From contig NZ_AAWL01000024.1 in the NCBI RefSeq assembly GCF_000169155.1, positions 1 through 34,495 on the forward strand: a DNA stretch of 34,495 bases. Reading direction: 5' to 3'. The translations under genes and the position numbers were made by a program. A model generated the notes under the pieces. That model ran no database searches. It was not told the origin of the DNA and saw only the letters and a list, made by a program, of their open reading frames with translations. The DNA comes from Thermosinus carboxydivorans Nor1. GTDB taxonomy: Bacteria; Bacillota; Negativicutes; Sporomusales; Thermosinaceae. This document shows, in pieces, positions 6,078 through 12,816 of the stretch. The stretch's first letter is position 1; each line of letters starts with the position of its first letter.

Positions 6078-6110
6078 TCTAAAAATAATCTAAAAAAAAT
6101 GCGCGATAAT
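6078..6110 (+). promoter_or_regulatory. tandem 11-bp direct repeats and -10 box (probable response-regulator site)
   Basis: TCTAAAAATAA (6078-6088) is followed directly by TCTAAAAAAAA (6089-6099) and then by a -10 box GATAAT at 6105-6110. The second repeat begins 16 bases before the -10 box. No -35 box is present, as expected for an activator-dependent promoter. The same arrangement recurs at 9147-9179. An 11-bp period is what OmpR/PhoB-type regulators recognise, and such a regulator is encoded at 7127-7801. Confidence 0.65.
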
Positions 6111-6163
6111 ACAACCATAGCCCCCATAAAAATATCAAACAGGGAAAGGATGGTTGGATTTCA

Positions 6164-6931
6164 ATGAACAAACCCCAAAAATGGCTGCTAGCAGCCAGTG
6201 TTGCTACGGTGTTTGCGGCAAATGGCCTAGTTCTGGCTGCCATACCGGCAGAGCGCCAAGACGCTGCAGGCGGTGCCCAATATGCTTTTGTAAACAAAGA
6301 GGGTTTTGAGCACCAACGGGAGATGGGACATTTCTGGCGCAACAACACTGCCCTGCTTGAATTGCTGAATATAGACGCAGCAACCTTAAAGAGCGAGCTC
6401 AAAGCCGGCAAATCACTGGCGACTATCGCCGGGGAGCACGGTGTTTCCGAGCAAACGCTTAAAAATTTTTTAGTCAACCAAATAAGCCAACGCCTTGACG
6501 AAGCAGTAAAGGCCGGCCGCCTGGATGCCGACAAGGCCGCGAAGATGAAAGCTGGGCTTGAGCCGCGCGTGACGACCATGATCCACCGTGAAGGACTATT
6601 GCATAATGGCCATGGCCCGATGCATCGGCTCGGCATGTTCCAAAATCCCGAGTTGTTGGCACTGCTAAAAATTGATGCGGAAACATTGCGTGCCGAGCTG
6701 AAGGCCGGTAAGACGTTGGCCGCGATTGCCGAGGAACATGGCGTTACCGCCCAGGAACTTAAAGACTTTTTGGTGAGTGAAATGTCCAAGAAAATTGATG
6801 AAGGCGTAAACGCCGGCCGCATTTCGGCCGAGAAAGCGGAAAAAATAAAGGCTAATCTGCCTAGCCGGGTTGCTGACCTGATTAACGGCCAGTATCCCAA
6901 GCACGGCCATAAGTTTGGCGGCGATAAATAA
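6164..6931 (+). CDS. secreted protein with two 100-residue-spaced repeats
   Basis: A 255-residue exported protein. Residues 1-26 form a signal peptide (KPQKWLL, then a hydrophobic core ending near VLAA). Two homologous modules, about residues 62-141 and 162-241, are exactly 100 residues apart: each has a 'LLxLLxIDAxTLxxELKAGK' segment, then 'LAxIAxEHGV' and a helical 'DEaVxAGRl.A.KA.K.KA.L..RV..LI' segment. A His-rich linker (HREGLLHNGHGPMHRLG) separates them, and another His-rich tail follows. Similar repeats are common in exported Firmicute proteins of unknown function. A tandem response-regulator-like site precedes the gene, and the two-component genes follow it, so it is probably part of that envelope-stress regulon. 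The start ATG 6164 has only a distant ribosome-binding site, ggaaagga. Confidence 0.8.
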   Translation: MNKPQKWLLAASVATVFAANGLVLAAIPAERQDAAGGAQYAFVNKEGFEHQREMGHFWRNNTALLELLNIDAATLKSELKAGKSLATIAGEHGVSEQTLKNFLVNQISQRLDEAVKAGRLDADKAAKMKAGLEPRVTTMIHREGLLHNGHGPMHRLGMFQNPELLALLKIDAETLRAELKAGKTLAAIAEEHGVTAQELKDFLVSEMSKKIDEGVNAGRISAEKAEKIKANLPSRVADLINGQYPKHGHKFGGDK

Positions 6932-6944
6932 TCGGCAAGGGTGA

Positions 6945-6979
6945 GGCAACAGGTGCTTGCTCGGCAAGCGCCTGTTGCC
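6945..6979 (+). terminator. hairpin after the secreted protein
   Basis: GGCAACAGGTGCTTGC (6945-6960) pairs with GCAAGCGCCTGTTGCC (6964-6979), 16 positions with one mismatch and a 3-base loop. The following T content is modest (gttgtttct), so termination may be partial, letting some transcripts reach the response regulator. Confidence 0.65.
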
Positions 6980-7126
6980 GTTGTTTCTACTAAGGCTTTT
7001 TGCCTATCACGCTGGTAATCTTTTGACCGGTGGCACCTAATCAAGAAAGCTAACTTGAGCATGATTTTGCTAAGGATTGGTTGAATATACCTAACCAAGA
7101 TATTTGCGTCAGGGATGGTGGTTCAG

Positions 7127-7801
7127 GTGAGAATTCTCGTGGTTGAAGACGATCATGCGCTGCGCGAAGCCGTCGTTGCGCTCTTAACCGAAGAAAACTA
7201 CCTTGTCGATGAAGCAGCAACCGGGGACGAGGGGTTATATTTAGCCGAACAGGGAATTCATGATCTGCTGGTGCTGGACATTATGCTGCCGGAAATTAGC
7301 GGTTTGGAAATCATCAAAAGGGTACGTGCGACCGGGCACACCATGCCGATTTTGCTATTAACCGCGCGGGATAGTGTGGCTGACCGCGTCAACGGCCTTG
7401 AGACCGGCGCCGATGACTATTTAACAAAGCCCTTTGCCATCCCGGAACTTTTAGCCAGGATAAAGGCTTTGCTGCGGCGCAGCGGCAACCTAGGGAAAGA
7501 CGGGAAAATAAGTTATGGCGGCGTGGTGATCGATGGCAAGCTGCGGGACGGTTTTGTCGAAGGCCAGGCATTGGGGTTAACTGCCAAGGAATATGAACTG
7601 TTAGAGTTTCTAATGTTAAATAAGGAACAGATTTTAACCAGAGAGCAAATTTTTGACCGGGTATGGGGATTTGCTTCGGAAACCACGATCAGCGTGGTTG
7701 ATCTATATATCCATTACCTGCGCAAAAAGTTAGCCTCTTTCGACCGGGACAACCTAATCCAAACCATCCGCGGCGCAGGATTTATGCTTAAGGAGAAATA
7801 A
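7127..7801 (+). CDS. OmpR/PhoB-family response regulator
   Basis: A two-domain response regulator of about 224 residues. The receiver domain (about 1-115) has the acidic pair Asp8-Asp9, the phospho-acceptor Asp51 in LLVLDIMLPE and the conserved Lys in YLTKPF. The C-terminal winged helix (about 125-222) has the OmpR-type TAKEYELLEFLMLNKEQILTRE and the trans-activation/recognition region VVDLYIHYLRKKL. GTG 7127 is preferred because it gives the family start (M)RILVVEDD; an ATG at 7115 would add four residues. The sensor kinase begins 3 bases after the stop. The likely targets are the tandem 11-bp sites at 6078 and 9147. Confidence 0.93.
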   Translation: MRILVVEDDHALREAVVALLTEENYLVDEAATGDEGLYLAEQGIHDLLVLDIMLPEISGLEIIKRVRATGHTMPILLLTARDSVADRVNGLETGADDYLTKPFAIPELLARIKALLRRSGNLGKDGKISYGGVVIDGKLRDGFVEGQALGLTAKEYELLEFLMLNKEQILTREQIFDRVWGFASETTISVVDLYIHYLRKKLASFDRDNLIQTIRGAGFMLKEK

Positions 7802-7804
7802 GTT

Positions 7805-9082
7805 ATGTTTCAGCGGACGCTACGCCGGTTGTCAATAATCAACTCGGTGGTATTTTTGCTGATCTTTTTGACCTTTGGTGCCGTGCTGTACGGGTATGTG
7901 GCTTACCGGCTTTTTGATAAAGTTGATGATGCAATGCGGTTTAAAGCGGAAAACTTTAAAATCGTAAATGGGCGTGCCATTCTGCCAGGACGGGTCCGGT
8001 TTTTATTTGATCCGCGCATCATTATTTTGGTGCGCGACAGCCAGGGGCGGGTTACCAGTTCTTTTCCCAGCGAGGTTGCCGAGCTGGAGCGTCTTGCTGC
8101 GTTGGCTTCACAGGTCGATGCGGGGAAAGTCCACATTAGCGAAGTTGACAGCCATGCTTACCGACTTATTAGCCTGCCATACCGGTATGAGGAAAATGTC
8201 CTGCAGACCGAGCGCGGGCCAATTGTCGTAAAAGACGTCATTGCCGTGAGTATCGTCGATTCCGAGGTCGCCTTACTCCGCAACCTTTTTATGATTATTG
8301 TCAGCGGACTGGTTATCGGGATGCTTATTATTATCATGGCAGGATATTACTTAGCCAGGCGGGCGATGGTTCCCATTCAGGCGGCCTGGGAGAAGCAGCA
8401 GCAGTTTGTGGCCGATGCTTCTCATGAATTGCGCACACCGCTAGCCGTAATAAAAAGCAATGCTGAACTTATGCTGAGACACCCTGACCATACCATCGAA
8501 GATGAAAGTATCCGGGTTACCAACATCGTCAGGGAAGTCAGGCGGATGACAAGGTTGGTTGCCGATTTGCTCACTTTAGCCAGGGCCGATGCTAATCAGT
8601 CTGAGCTGCAACTGGGTGCGGTCAGCTTAAGCGAGCTGGTCGATGCTGTTAGCGAACAGTTTAAACCGCTGGCCCAGTTGGAAGGACATACCCTGACCGT
8701 GGCGGTGTATGAACAACTAGAACTAGTGGGCGACCGGGAACGGCTATATCAGTTGCTGGTCATTTTATTGGACAATGCCGTAAAATACACGCCGCCTCCC
8801 GGGCATATCTTAATCACCGGGGTCAGGCAGGGCAGCCATATTCTGCTAACGGTCGAAGACTCCGGGCAGGGGATACCGCCGGAGGATTTGCCGCGTGTTT
8901 TCGACCGGTTTTATCGGGGCGATAAAGCCCGGTCACGGGAAAAAGGCGGAACCGGTTTAGGACTGGCGATTGCCAAGTGGATTGTCGAAAAGCATGGAGG
9001 CAAAATATGGGTGGAGAGCAAGGTCGGCGTAGGGACAAAGTTCAGTGTGCTTTTGCCGGTAAAATTTATTAAAAGAGTTTGA
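7805..9082 (+). CDS. membrane sensor histidine kinase
   Basis: A 425-residue sensor kinase. Two transmembrane helices (about residues 11-33 and 160-184) enclose an extracytoplasmic sensor segment of about 125 residues. Next come the dimerisation and phospho-transfer domain with His207 in DASHELRTPLA and the catalytic domain with the N box LLDNAVKYTPP, G1 box VEDSGQGIP, F box VFDRFYRG and G2 box GGTGLGLAIAK. No clear separate HAMP domain stands out between the second helix and the H box; the link is short. It lies 3 bases after its response regulator. Its signal is unknown, but the linked export operon suggests envelope damage or a toxic compound. Confidence 0.93.
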   Translation: MFQRTLRRLSIINSVVFLLIFLTFGAVLYGYVAYRLFDKVDDAMRFKAENFKIVNGRAILPGRVRFLFDPRIIILVRDSQGRVTSSFPSEVAELERLAALASQVDAGKVHISEVDSHAYRLISLPYRYEENVLQTERGPIVVKDVIAVSIVDSEVALLRNLFMIIVSGLVIGMLIIIMAGYYLARRAMVPIQAAWEKQQQFVADASHELRTPLAVIKSNAELMLRHPDHTIEDESIRVTNIVREVRRMTRLVADLLTLARADANQSELQLGAVSLSELVDAVSEQFKPLAQLEGHTLTVAVYEQLELVGDRERLYQLLVILLDNAVKYTPPPGHILITGVRQGSHILLTVEDSGQGIPPEDLPRVFDRFYRGDKARSREKGGTGLGLAIAKWIVEKHGGKIWVESKVGVGTKFSVLLPVKFIKRV

Positions 9083-9097
9083 GCAAGGTTAATTTCG

Positions 9098-9130
9098 GCC
9101 ATCGGTTTTGGTACCGGTGGCTTTTGTTTT
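9098..9130 (+). terminator. intrinsic terminator after the kinase
   Basis: GCCATCGGT (9098-9106) pairs with ACCGGTGGC (9113-9121) with one G-U pair, followed by TTTTGTTTT. Confidence 0.75.
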
Positions 9131-9146
9131 AATAGGTGAGCCGTTT

Positions 9147-9179
9147 TCTAAAAAAAATCTAAAACTTATCCCGCATAAT
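9147..9179 (+). promoter_or_regulatory. tandem 11-bp direct repeats and -10 box for the export operon
   Basis: TCTAAAAAAAA (9147-9157) and TCTAAAACTTA (9158-9168) are followed by CATAAT at 9174-9179. The distance from the second repeat to the -10 box, 16 bases, equals that of the site at 6078-6110. Three features agree between the two sites: repeat sequence, 11-bp period and spacing. Confidence 0.65.
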
Positions 9180-9297: not shown

Positions 9298-9771
9298 ATG
9301 CGGCTAAAAAATAAGGCAGCTGTTATCACTGCCGGTCTAATTATTTTGCAACAGTCATTCTTGTTCGCCGCGCCGATCAAGCTGTCGCTGGCCGAAAGTA
9401 TTGATTTGGCTTTAAAAAATAACCCGGCGCTCCAAATAGCGCAAGAAGACAAAGAGCGGTCGCTGTGGGGGGGTTAGTGAAGCCAAAGCAGGAAAGCTGC
9501 CGAGCATTTCACTTGGCAGTAGTTACAGTTTTCAGGACCGGGGCGCTGATGCACCTGGCCAAGACGCCTAAATAGCAGCTTAAGAATGAGCTGGCAACTT
9601 TACACCGGTGGTCGGACCAAAGCGCAGATTAAGCAGGCTGAGCTTGGCGTTACCACCGCATTGGCGCTCACTCAGGCCAAGACCAATCATGTTCAAGCCC
9701 TCTACGATTACAATGTTAATAAAGCCAGATTGGATAAAGCGATAGGCTTAGCAACAGAGTTGAGAAAATGA
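9298..9771 (+). pseudogene. TolC-type outer-membrane efflux protein, decayed
   Basis: TolC-type channels carry substrates of MacAB and related pumps across the outer membrane and are usually 400-480 residues. Here ATG 9298 starts a signal peptide and the typical first helix LSLAESIDLALKNNPALQIAQEDKE, but the frame ends at a TAG (9475-9477) after a run of seven G (9467-9473). With six G the reading continues as VSEAKAGKLPSISLGSSYSFQ, the normal next segment, then stops again near 9570. A third frame (from 9586) reads SWQLYTGGRTKAQIKQAELGV, which belongs to the middle of the family, and runs straight into LTQAKTNHVQALYDYNVNKARLDKA, the family's C-terminal end. So most of both coiled-coil halves is deleted. 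The total of about 470 bases is a third of a normal gene. It is first in the operon, ahead of an intact adaptor, ATPase and permease. Confidence 0.85.
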
Positions 9772-9785
9772 CGGAGGTAAATATT

Positions 9786-10904
9786 ATGCGAGAAGTGTGG
9801 CTGAAAACTAAGCAGCATAAAAAGTGGCTGCTCCTCGGGCTGGGCGGTCTGGCCGCAGTTATCGCCGGTTTATTCTTCGCGCAAGGCGCCGGCAAGATGT
9901 CGGCGGCTGCGCCGCAACAAGTTATCCAGGTGGAACGCGGCGACATTGTTGCTACCGTGGCGGCAACCGGCACAATCAAACCGGTAAATATGGTTGATAT
10001 AAGTTCAAAGATAACGGCGCAAATCAAAGAGGTAAAAGTGAAGGAGAACGACCAAGTAAAGGCTGGCCAGGTTCTCGTCATATTAGAAGACAGCGGGCTG
10101 CAGGCCCAGGTAACTCAGGCCAAAGAGCGGCTTGATAATGCCGCGGTCAAATATGAGCGAATCGCCAGGCTGACCGCCATCGGCGGCGCATCAAAAGAAC
10201 AGCTCGATACTGCCCGCATGGACTACAATATTGCCAAGGCAAGCTACGACGAAGTTATGTCAAAACTAAGCGAGGCCGTGATAGTTTCGCCCATTGACGG
10301 CACGGTGATCGGCAAACCGCTTTCCGCCGGAGAAATGGTGACCCAGGGTGTTAACAACCCGACCGTAATTTTGACGGTGGCCGATATGTCGAAAATGCAG
10401 ATCGAAGCGCAGGTGGACCAAACCGATATTGGTAAAGTAGCGCTTGGCCAAAAAGTCACCTTTACCGTTGATGCTTATCCCGGTAAAGAGTTTACGGGTA
10501 CGGTGGCTACCATTTCCAAAAAACCGGTCGTCCAGCAGAATGTCACCTACTATCCGGTGACTATCGACGTTAATAATGCGGAAAACTTGCTAAATCCCGG
10601 GATGGTTGCCAGGGTGTCCATCACGGTCAGCGAAAGGAAAGGCGTGGTGACATTGCCGCTTTCGGCGATACGGACAGATAAAACAGGTAAGTATGTTATC
10701 GTTATCGGTGATAACGGCCAGACCCAAAATGTGCCCGTCACCACCGGCAGTGTTGGCGATGACCGGGTAGAAATTACCAGTGGGCTCAAGGAGGGTGATA
10801 AGGTCGTCGTATCGCTGCCGAAGACGCAGGCACAAGGGCAAACCGGCGGCGGTCAACAAGGACGGCCTTCCTCCAATCCGCTTAACATGATGCGCCGCAT
10901 GTAA
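9786..10904 (+). CDS. periplasmic adaptor (MacA/RND membrane-fusion type)
   Basis: A 372-residue membrane-fusion protein that would bridge the inner-membrane MacB-like permease and an outer-membrane channel. A single N-terminal membrane anchor (about residues 13-36) follows a Lys-rich start. Then come the lipoyl-like half-motifs (ITAQIKEVKVKENDQVKAGQVLVILED and VIVSPIDGTVIGKPLSAGEMV), a short helical hairpin (about 105-165, QAKERLDNAAVKYERIARL) and the beta-barrel and membrane-proximal domains. The C-terminal tail is Gln/Gly-rich. ATG 9786 is preferred over 9768 because ggaggt lies 8 bases upstream. The coding sequence of the TolC remnant ends just before, and the ATPase follows after 12 bases. 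Confidence 0.92.
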   Translation: MREVWLKTKQHKKWLLLGLGGLAAVIAGLFFAQGAGKMSAAAPQQVIQVERGDIVATVAATGTIKPVNMVDISSKITAQIKEVKVKENDQVKAGQVLVILEDSGLQAQVTQAKERLDNAAVKYERIARLTAIGGASKEQLDTARMDYNIAKASYDEVMSKLSEAVIVSPIDGTVIGKPLSAGEMVTQGVNNPTVILTVADMSKMQIEAQVDQTDIGKVALGQKVTFTVDAYPGKEFTGTVATISKKPVVQQNVTYYPVTIDVNNAENLLNPGMVARVSITVSERKGVVTLPLSAIRTDKTGKYVIVIGDNGQTQNVPVTTGSVGDDRVEITSGLKEGDKVVVSLPKTQAQGQTGGGQQGRPSSNPLNMMRRM

Positions 10905-10916
10905 GGAGGCCGGGAA

Positions 10917-11600
10917 ATGGGGATTGAGTTATCTGATATAACCAAGATCTACCAAATGGGCGACACACCGGTCGCCGCCCTGGCCGGCGTGACCTTAAAG
11001 ATTCGGGAAGGCGAGTTTACTGCCATCATGGGGCCGTCGGGTTCAGGTAAATCGACATTAATGAATATCTTGGGCTGCCTGGACCGGCCGACAAGCGGGT
11101 CGTATTTGCTCGATGGCCAAGAAGTATCGTCGCTGACTGACGATGAACTGGCGCTGACCCGGAATAAAAAGATTGGGTTTGTCTTTCAGAACTTCAACCT
11201 ATTGCCGCGGATGTCGGCTATCGACAACGTAGCCTTGCCGCTTGTTTATGCCGGTGTCGGTGTTAAAGAACGACAGAAACGAGCAGCGGCGGCATTGGCT
11301 GCCGTTGGGCTGGAACACAGGATGAACCACTTACCGAATGAGTTGTCAGGTGGTCAGCGCCAGCGGGTTGCCATCGCGCGGGCGCTGGTAAACGAGCCGT
11401 CTATTATTATGGCCGACGAGCCTACCGGTGCCCTTGATACCAAGTCAGGCAATGAGGTAATGGAAATCTTTCAAAGCCTCAACTCCTGCGGACGGACGAT
11501 TATCCTGGTAACCCACGAGCCCGATATTGCCGCCTACGCCAGAAGGGTGATCCACGTCCGGGACGGGCGCATCGTCCGGGATACAGAAAGGGATGATTGA
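10917..11600 (+). CDS. ABC transporter ATPase, MacB/LolD type
   Basis: A 227-residue ATPase with a complete set of motifs: Walker [11 protein letters not shown] loop VFQNFNLLP, signature [15 protein letters not shown], Walker [13 protein letters not shown] and the H-loop His in ILVTHEP. Length and sequence match the MacB/LolD/FtsE-like group that works with long-loop permeases rather than channel-forming importers. Ribosome-binding site aaggagg precedes ATG 10917. The permease gene overlaps it by 8 bases, so the two are translated together. It is expected to power substrate extrusion by the neighbouring permease and adaptor. Confidence 0.95.
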
Positions 11601-12816
11601 TGTGTTGTGGGAAAGCGTAAAGATCGCCTTAAATGCATTGGTCGCCAACAAATTGCGCTCGGTCCTTACCATGCTCGGCATTATCATCGGGGTAGGCGCG
11701 GTCATCGCCATGGTTTCCATCGGCCTGGGCGTGCGGGATAAGGTGCAAAACTCGATTGCCAGCCTCGGGAGCAATCTTATCATTGTTACTCCGGGGGCGG
11801 CTTCGTCTTCCGGTGTCCGGCAAGCGGCGGGGACGAATACTACGCTGACGCTGAAAGATGCGCAGGCCATTGCCCGTGAGGTTCCCGGCGTAAGTGCGGT
11901 CGCTCCCAGCGTCGGCCGGCAGTATCAGGTTGTTGCGGGCAACCAGAACTGGACTACCAACGTCCAGGGAACAACCCCGGAATATATGGATGTCCGCAAT
12001 TTAAGCGTCCAGAGCGGCAGCTTTATCACCCCTGAAGATGTGGCAGCAAGAAATCGCGTTGCCGTTATTGGCTCGACGGTTGCCGGCAACTTGTTCGGCA
12101 ACGGAAATCCGGTCGGCCAGAATATTCGTATCAATAACGCCCCGTTTAAGGTGATCGGGGTCTTGGAAAGTAAAGGCCAGTCGGCCGGGGGCCAAGACCA
12201 GGACGATATTGTTATCATTCCCCTTACCACTGCCCAAGAGCGGCTGATGGGGATTACGTATATCCAGACCATCAGTGTACAGGCGGCCAGCGCCGATGTT
12301 ATCGACCAGGTTCAGGACAGTATCACCGGCCTGTTGCGGTCGCGTCACCGCATTACGCCTGACAAACCGGACGACTTTACGGTGCGCAACCTCGCCAGCG
12401 TAATGGCCACAGCCCAGGAAACGACTGCTACGATCACCATGCTGCTAGGCAGTATAGCGGCGATTTCCCTCGTGGTCGGCGGTATTGGCATTATGAACAT
12501 CATGTTGGTATCTGTCACCGAACGGACGCGGGAAATTGGCATCCGTAAGGCGTTAGGGGCAAAATATTCTAATATCCTTATGCAATTTCTGATTGAGGCG
12601 GTCGTTATCGGCGTAATCGGCGGCGTTATCGGCATCGCGCTGGGTATAGGCGGTTCTTACGCAATTTCCTCCTTTGCCGGCTGGAATACCGTTATCACTC
12701 CGTTGCCTATTTTCGTGTCTTTTGGTTTTTCCGTCGGCATCGGTCTGTTCTTTGGGCTGTACCCGGCCCGCAAGGCGGCACTATTGAATCCCATTGACGC
12801 GCTAAGGTACGAATAG
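11593..12816 (+). CDS. MacB-type ABC permease (FtsX fold)
   Basis: A 407-residue permease with the four-helix MacB layout: helix 1 near residues 20-43 ([22 protein letters not shown]), a long periplasmic domain (about 45-280, starting [11 protein letters not shown]), then three helices in the last 130 residues, with the conserved cytoplasmic turn [16 protein letters not shown] and the ending [20 protein letters not shown]. It lacks its own ATPase domain, which is the separate upstream gene, as in many Gram-positive and Negativicute MacAB systems. Start ATG 11593 overlaps the ATPase gene; GTG 11602 is possible. With the TolC gene destroyed, the complex must use another channel or release substrate into the periplasm. 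Confidence 0.94.

Follow-up and report, generated by a model that had tools for sequence, protein, structure and literature searches.

Background

Promoters of the PhoB type, with their pho boxes, carry 11-bp (base pair) direct repeats in place of the -35 element. In streptococci, CiaR, the OmpR-family regulator of the CiaRH regulon, goes with the arrangement TTTAAG-N5-TTTAAG, 10 bases, -10 box (PMC3091779). In this paper, we study two promoter sites of comparable layout in Thermosinus carboxydivorans Nor1, in a stretch of 34,495 nucleotides that we call the window (contig NZ_AAWL01000024.1, positions 1 to 34,495, forward strand). Site 1 precedes the gene of a secreted two-repeat protein, called P1 below, site 2 precedes an operon for a MacAB-like efflux pump, and the genes of a response regulator and a sensor kinase lie between them.

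What the locus shares with CiaR is an OmpR-family regulator, two hexamers separated by N5, and 10 bases to the -10 box; the recognition helices are also similar in form, VVEVYVSKVRKKL for CiaR and VVDLYIHYLRKKL for the window regulator, with several positions that differ. The half-site, however, is TTTAAG there and TCWAAA here, the genes are other ones, and streptococci stand against diderm Negativicutes. The CiaR regulon is marked by TTTAAG half-sites with an essential G and by the helix VVEVYV/ISKV/IRKKL, where the window has VVDLYIHYLRKKL, and we do not count the locus as a member. From the pho-box promoters, the sites studied here differ in half-site sequence, in genes and presumably in signal.

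Control of such pumps by two-component systems is described for PhoPQ, which in Salmonella and E. coli controls macAB (PMC5985334), and for BaeSR, which controls MacAB-TolC in Acinetobacter (PMC4498774); transporters of the BceAB type form, with two-component systems, an antimicrobial-peptide module of Firmicutes (PMC5985334). The first two have in common with our locus a two-component system that controls a MacAB-TolC pump, and the third the coupling of a two-component system to a MacB-like transporter. In contrast to PhoPQ and BaeSR, the system is here often encoded in the pump locus, and its site is shared with a secreted repeat protein. PhoPQ and BaeSR are broader systems. In contrast to BceAB, there is a MacA adaptor, a TolC-type channel (in relatives) and a permease with the MacB layout, MacB_PCD plus one FtsX domain. 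The kind is already known: a two-component system, a tandem 11-bp operator, an efflux operon. A search of open-licence literature, by titles and abstract starts, found no description of the motif or of the regulon in Negativicutes.

Results and discussion

Two promoter sites around a regulator gene

Read directly from the DNA, both sites are exact instances of TCTAAA-N5-TCTAAA-N10-(G/C)ATAAT, and in each the -10 box begins 16 bases past the start of the second repeat (Table 1). A sequence-only reading of the window had given these tandem repeats, their coordinates, the -10 boxes and the 16-base spacing, and it proved exact at both sites; the regulator gene lies between the two sites, as it had said. 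It had also held that neither promoter has a -35 box. The bases at the -35 position, for a 17-base spacer, are AAAATA at site 1 and AAAAAA at site 2, no hexamer like TTGACA can be read 16 to 18 bases 5' of either -10 box, and a consensus promoter scan, which gave 6 promoter-like matches, has none at the -35 position of either site.

A pair of direct half-sites with an 11-bp period, a gap of about 10 bases before the -10 box and the absence of a -35 box constitute the class II-type layout of OmpR/PhoB promoters, which is found in the window and in the 23 aligned P1 promoters described below. A promoter for an alternative sigma factor was also considered and, from the layout alone, judged less likely, an 11-bp direct repeat over the -35 position before a TATAAT-like -10 box being the layout of the OmpR family.

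The regulator matches PF00072 with 101.4 bits and PF00486 with 82.2 bits, both above the cut-off; a receiver and a winged helix make it a member of the OmpR/PhoB family, and its best matches in the PDB include PrrA, BasR, PhoP and RegX3, which we take to be members of the same family. We think it very probable that sites 1 and 2 serve as operators, and as class II-type promoters, for the single two-component system of the OmpR/PhoB family whose genes they flank; this system would co-activate P1 and the pump. Given the gene neighbourhood and the geometry, the natural inference is that the window regulator would be the protein that binds them.

Table 1. Features of the locus, in positions of the window.
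Feature	Positions	Strand	Description
Promoter site 1	6078..6110	+	TCTAAA 6078-6083, TCTAAA 6089-6094, 11-bp period, -10 GATAAT 6105-6110, no -35 box
Secreted two-repeat protein P1	6164..6931	+	255 amino acids; signal-peptide-like N terminus by reading; near DUF2680
Terminator-like hairpin behind P1 gene	6945..6979	+	16-pair stem, strong
OmpR/PhoB-family response regulator	7115..7801	+	Response_reg and Trans_reg_C; 30-sequence alignment
Sensor histidine kinase	7805..9082	+	HisKA, HATPase_c; membrane-bound by reading
Terminator-like hairpin behind kinase gene	9097..9122	+	weaker than the hairpin at 6945-6979
Promoter site 2	9147..9179	+	TCTAAA 9147-9152, TCTAAA 9158-9163, -10 CATAAT 9174-9179
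tolC-type outer-membrane channel gene, remnant	9298..9771	+	internal deletion and frame changes relative to sister species
MacA-like adaptor	9768..10904	+	TIGR01730 205.6 bits, cut-off 94.9
MacB-like ATPase, separate polypeptide	10917..11600	+	ABC_tran
MacB-like permease	11593..12816	+	MacB_PCD and FtsX

Conservation upstream of the P1 gene

The P1 gene was sought in 100 relatives, where 27 genomes have a match at E <= 0.001; a search widened to 380 genomes of the class gave 24 with a match at E <= 1e-15. This class-wide search yielded no P1 genes past those already found, and consequently no further independent test set. Of the 24 genomes with a P1 gene at E <= 1e-15, which bear 9 family labels, 23 have the site upstream, at a constant spacing to the -10 box (genomes, loci and contigs are cited by our G, L and C numbers). 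Compared with TCWAAAN5TCWAAAN10CATAAT, 18 of these promoters have no mismatch, 4 have one and 1 has two, and the first repeat lies 73-97 bases from the start of the P1 protein match in 22 cases, G008 standing apart. The conservation of the aligned columns is near absolute in the half-sites and the -10 box, and lower between and outside them: the C at the second position is kept in 23 of 23 first half-sites and in 22 of 23 second ones, and both half-sites are TCWAAA in 21 of the 23 promoters, the exceptions being L051 and L068. In the sister species both sites are kept in place, and at site 2 the 26-base core is identical while the flanks have diverged.

The 24th genome, G093, whose P1 protein is 38% identical, is without TCWAAA. 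Its locus L066 has, by eye, a TTAAG-type repeat with an 11-base period before CATAAT, and a diverged regulator, 56% identical, is encoded close by.

The -35 columns of the 23 promoters have no resemblance to TTGACA, and this bears on the sign of the regulation. The same regulator could bind the repeats and repress, or act mainly unphosphorylated, pump and P1 being released upon the kinase signal, and a repressor, too, could act at the -35 position, which the sites do overlap. However, a promoter that has no -35 box, as is the case for both promoters of the window, is expected to need an activator, and the spacing equals that of CiaR-activated promoters (PMC3091779). We regard repression as very unlikely, and co-activation as the sign to retain.

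The site at pump promoters

A weight matrix of 37 columns was built from 20 unique P1 promoters, that of the window excluded and that of the sister species included, and run on a 350-base stretch spanning the start of the leading gene, tolC or macA, of each pump operon. There were 48 pump loci, of which 8 without a pump start were dropped; the remaining 40 include the window and the sister species. As controls we took 20 MacAB operons: 4 second pumps of genomes that bear the regulator, 1 with a regulator 53% identical, and 15 without a regulator match (E <= 1e-60). Random 300-base segments of the fetched loci were tried as a null distribution, the top of which was spoiled by real sites, and were replaced by the control pumps and by shuffled matrices.

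A score of at least 8 is reached by 33 of the 40 TolC-MacAB operon promoters, under 11 family labels, and by 0 of the 20 control MacAB operons, the highest of which scores 7.4. The pump promoter of the window, site 2, heads the 40 with a score of 37.2, from a matrix trained on the P1 promoters of other genomes only. Pumps and controls differ with p = 7e-8 (Mann-Whitney) and p = 2e-10 (Fisher); since kinship makes the genomes dependent on one another, the 11 family labels covered are a fairer measure than the p values. Column-shuffled matrices put a mean of 0.13 of the 40 promoters above the threshold, with a maximum of 5 in 60 trials, and the opposite strand puts none of the 40 there.

An orthologue of the window regulator shares the locus with 31 of the 40 tested pump operons. 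By a hand count, the site is present at 29 of these 31 pumps, which lie behind the regulator-kinase pair, not always directly, versus 4 of the 9 others. The conservation of the site at both operons, across many families, is thus observed directly, and the small regulon predicted by the sequence-only reading, P1 and pump with their regulator between, is borne out by 23 of 24 P1 genomes and by 33 of 40 pumps against 0 of 20 controls, with the regulator as the predicted binder.

Counts in the genome

The genome assembly of the window has 2,889,774 bases and is 96.6% complete, so that a further site could be missing from it. Searched as an 18-mer, the repeat has 2 matches in the window with at most 2 mismatches, for 0.01 expected from shuffles, and 2 exact matches in the whole genome versus 0 for the reversed pattern. 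Against the full degenerate pattern, TCWAAAN5TCWAAAN10SATAAT, sites 1 and 2, both without mismatch, are the only ones in the genome with at most 1 mismatch, the next best having 2; at 3 mismatches or fewer there are 17 matches versus 26 for the reversed control, so that no other site is set apart from the rest. The third-best site, with 2 mismatches, is on contig C10, between reading frames that look regulator-like and transporter-like in translation; as a member of the regulon it was rejected, being probably a chance match.

The full arrangement is thus near-unique in the genome and, in relatives, recurrent at both operons, the outcome of the search that had been proposed with the sequence-only reading. 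Whether the motif is simply common at random, the other question raised there, has a divided answer: the bare repeat is, the repeat with its -10 box is not.

Points that weigh on the other side

Several observations weigh against the sites being a dedicated operator of one system. The threshold of 8 was fixed after the scores were seen; training set and pump test draw on largely the same genomes, which are related, at a different operon; and the "regulator-free" status of controls rests on at most 29 candidates scored per genome. Seven of the 40 pump operons score below 8, L249 and L250 among them showing the repeat by eye. Three genomes with weak P1 matches (G046, G061 and G073, E from 1e-9 to 3e-12) have no such site upstream. 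Systems of this kind often regulate themselves, yet only three relatives show signs of it, in the form of one-mismatch sites about 445 bases upstream of the regulator gene in G031 and G067 and about 250 bases upstream in G008; the regulator operon is mostly without a site. Within 330 bases upstream of regulator genes the matrix attains at most 7.5 (L178) and 2.4 (L244), all others being below 2, and the regulator-kinase genes of the window have no recognisable site of their own; their expression may come from read-through or from a weak promoter.

To the same side belong the counts of the bare repeat. Without the -10 box, TCTAAAN5TCTAAA has 2 exact matches in the genome versus 2 for the reversed control, and 12 versus 16 with at most one mismatch, so that the specificity must reside in the full arrangement. 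The repeats could accordingly be thought of as AT-rich promoter decoration, an UP-element or an A-tract bend, or as chance, with no specific operator: the sites are A-rich, UP elements are A/T-rich, and genome counts do not disfavour chance for the bare repeat. For the full arrangement, chance and AT-richness are disfavoured by the genome counts, the reversed control, the opposite strand, the 20 control pumps, none of which has the site, and the column-shuffled matrices, which have an identical composition and miss the pump promoters. Decoration would also leave aside the nearly invariant C of both half-sites, the fixed 11-bp period and the fixed distance to the -10 box, and we hold it to be most improbable.

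Finally, the pump of Sporomusa malonica is found beside a different regulator, 46% identical, and has kept the site, so that another regulator could be the binder there. More generally, the main binder of the TCWAAA sites could be a paralogous regulator of the same family, or several with overlapping specificity, a possibility that draws further strength from several Sporomusa genomes in which another close regulator (66-68% identical) exists beside the first and unrelated genes carry additional sites. In the genome of the window, however, the regulator has a single match at E <= 1e-60 (among at most 29 candidates scored), there are exactly two full sites and they flank the regulator; the site is also present at nearly all pumps that lie, within one locus, behind a window-type regulator. 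A paralogue as main binder seems to us rather unlikely, and we keep the regulator encoded between the sites as the candidate.

Regulator branches and their putative operators

The core of the recognition helix, D-L-Y-x-H-Y-L-R-x-K, is invariant in the window regulator and 29 aligned orthologues, which are 68-88% identical to it; further matches, down to 63% identity, were found and left out of the alignment. Diverged regulators, 53-55% identical, have the helices VDVYIHHLRKK or V(D/E)VYIHFLRKK, and in L314 and L316 repeats of TTCTTAAA or TTAAG, with an 11-base period, can be seen by eye upstream of their own genes; L315 has, by eye, a single copy of the repeat within the stretch printed. This suggests, on sequence comparison, that helix and operator may change together between regulator branches. 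Among diverged regulators that are 53-56% identical, 11-bp repeats of TTCTTAAA or TTAAG were noted nearby in L314, L315 (one copy), L316, L313 and L066.

Further sites in relatives

Over all 100 relatives, the pattern with at most 1 mismatch has 70 matches in 34 genomes, versus 13 control matches, both summed. Under the genus label that holds Sporomusa, it occurs 0-10 times per genome (10 in G023), versus 0-1 for the reversed control, and the translations of the frames that follow these extra sites suggest one CheY-like and one AbrB-like protein, a sensor-like membrane protein of 661 residues, a channel of the MscS kind and small secreted proteins.

In the Sporomusa group, extra sites of the form TTCTAAANAAATTCTAAAAATNG..TATAAT are found in L158-L165, L170-L176, L302 and L303, some of them 240-430 bases before frames for signalling, channel or secreted proteins. 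Several of the genomes with extra sites also have a second close regulator-kinase pair (66-67% and 48% identical in three).

These observations lead to a tentative conjecture, possible in our view and still doubtful: in the diderm Firmicutes (Negativicutes), regulation through TCWAAA may form an ancestral circuit for defence of the envelope, in which helix and operator would have co-diverged, VDLYIHYLRKK with TCWAAA, and VDVYIHHLRKK or V(D/E)VYIHFLRKK with TTCTTAAA or TTAAG at the same period, and which in Sporomusa would have grown to include genes for signalling, mechanosensing and secreted proteins.

Genes of the locus

By comparison with relatives, the regulator probably starts at GTG 7127 and the MacA-like adaptor at ATG 9786. 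Because of the terminator-like hairpin behind its gene, P1 is probably transcribed as a separate unit. Behind the P1 gene of L048, L049 and L067, just before position 1501, a hairpin similar in sequence (AACAGGC-CTTGC / GCAAG-GCCTGTT type) was noted.

Of the parts of a MacAB-TolC pump, the operon has an adaptor of the MacA type, and a MacB ATPase and permease with periplasmic core; an intact TolC is missing. With 135.7 bits, the adaptor does not reach the cut-off of 342 for the MacA equivalog, and ATPase and permease are two chains with 288 and 292 bits, neither at the cut-off of 966 of the fused MacB equivalog. In the sister species the gene order is identical and tolC is intact (L105:9570-10829); the tolC of the window has lost a large internal stretch and its frame is altered, with the promoter in front still conserved. 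Two other genes of the OEP family, with open frames of 437 and 448 amino acids, are found elsewhere in the genome.

The secreted protein P1

P1 matches DUF2680 with 24.6 bits, just under the Pfam gathering cut-off of 25, and the match has E <= 0.01 in all 20 sequences of alignment A1, the window included. The AlphaFold model shows two helical repeats, with a predicted local distance difference test (pLDDT) of about 82-92 in the blocks and a mean of 68.6. Compared with the PDB, the model finds nothing with E below 0.7, and a profile search with P1 returns ribosomal S20 alone, at E 0.03-0.04. Since P1 has a signal-peptide-like start of its own, the pump need not export it.

His and Met abound in the linkers between the repeats (GHGPMHRLGM is an example), which leaves a metal-binding role as a possibility suggested by composition. 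In some genomes P1 is longer, with more repeat matches. Counted from close to the start point, the leader ahead of the start codon is about 36-60 bases long, and in several Sporomusa-group genomes (L056, L059, L060, L061) the transcript would open with a small hairpin such as TAGCCTCCAGGCTA.

Directly behind the P1 gene there is a further site in G018, G002, G009 and G021 (L196:9314, L191:10753, L193:7249 and L168:7027 respectively); the one in G021 precedes a secreted-looking frame of 80 residues. Distant relatives of P1 occur in Brevibacillus, Paenibacillus and actinobacterial assemblies (L222, L226, L227, L231, L234, L210), some of these loci with a regulator-kinase pair within a few kilobases, and Brevibacillus fortis has a weak motif match upstream (L210:9373, score 12.2).

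Proposed mechanism and significance

We infer activation, a need for phosphorylation and a defence role of the regulon, and propose the following course. The kinase, once stimulated, would phosphorylate the regulator, a dimer of which would bind head-to-tail across the pair of TCWAAA half-sites, spaced by one turn of the helix. With a start 7 bases past the -10 box, the half-sites would lie at about -39 to -34 and -28 to -23, where the bound regulator would replace the missing -35 contact and recruit RNA polymerase. P1 and the (TolC)-MacA-MacB pump would thus be switched on together, as an envelope-defence response. A role in envelope stress or against antimicrobial peptides is our default guess, by analogy, because two-component control of MacAB is known elsewhere.

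For the Negativicutes, the two sites provide a sharply defined operator and promoter layout of a two-component system, and the full site is specific enough for targets to be predicted genome by genome. The link between a secreted repeat protein and a MacAB efflux pump makes the function of the protein testable. If the co-divergence of helix and operator is true, it would be a natural series in which to read the specificity code of the OmpR family.

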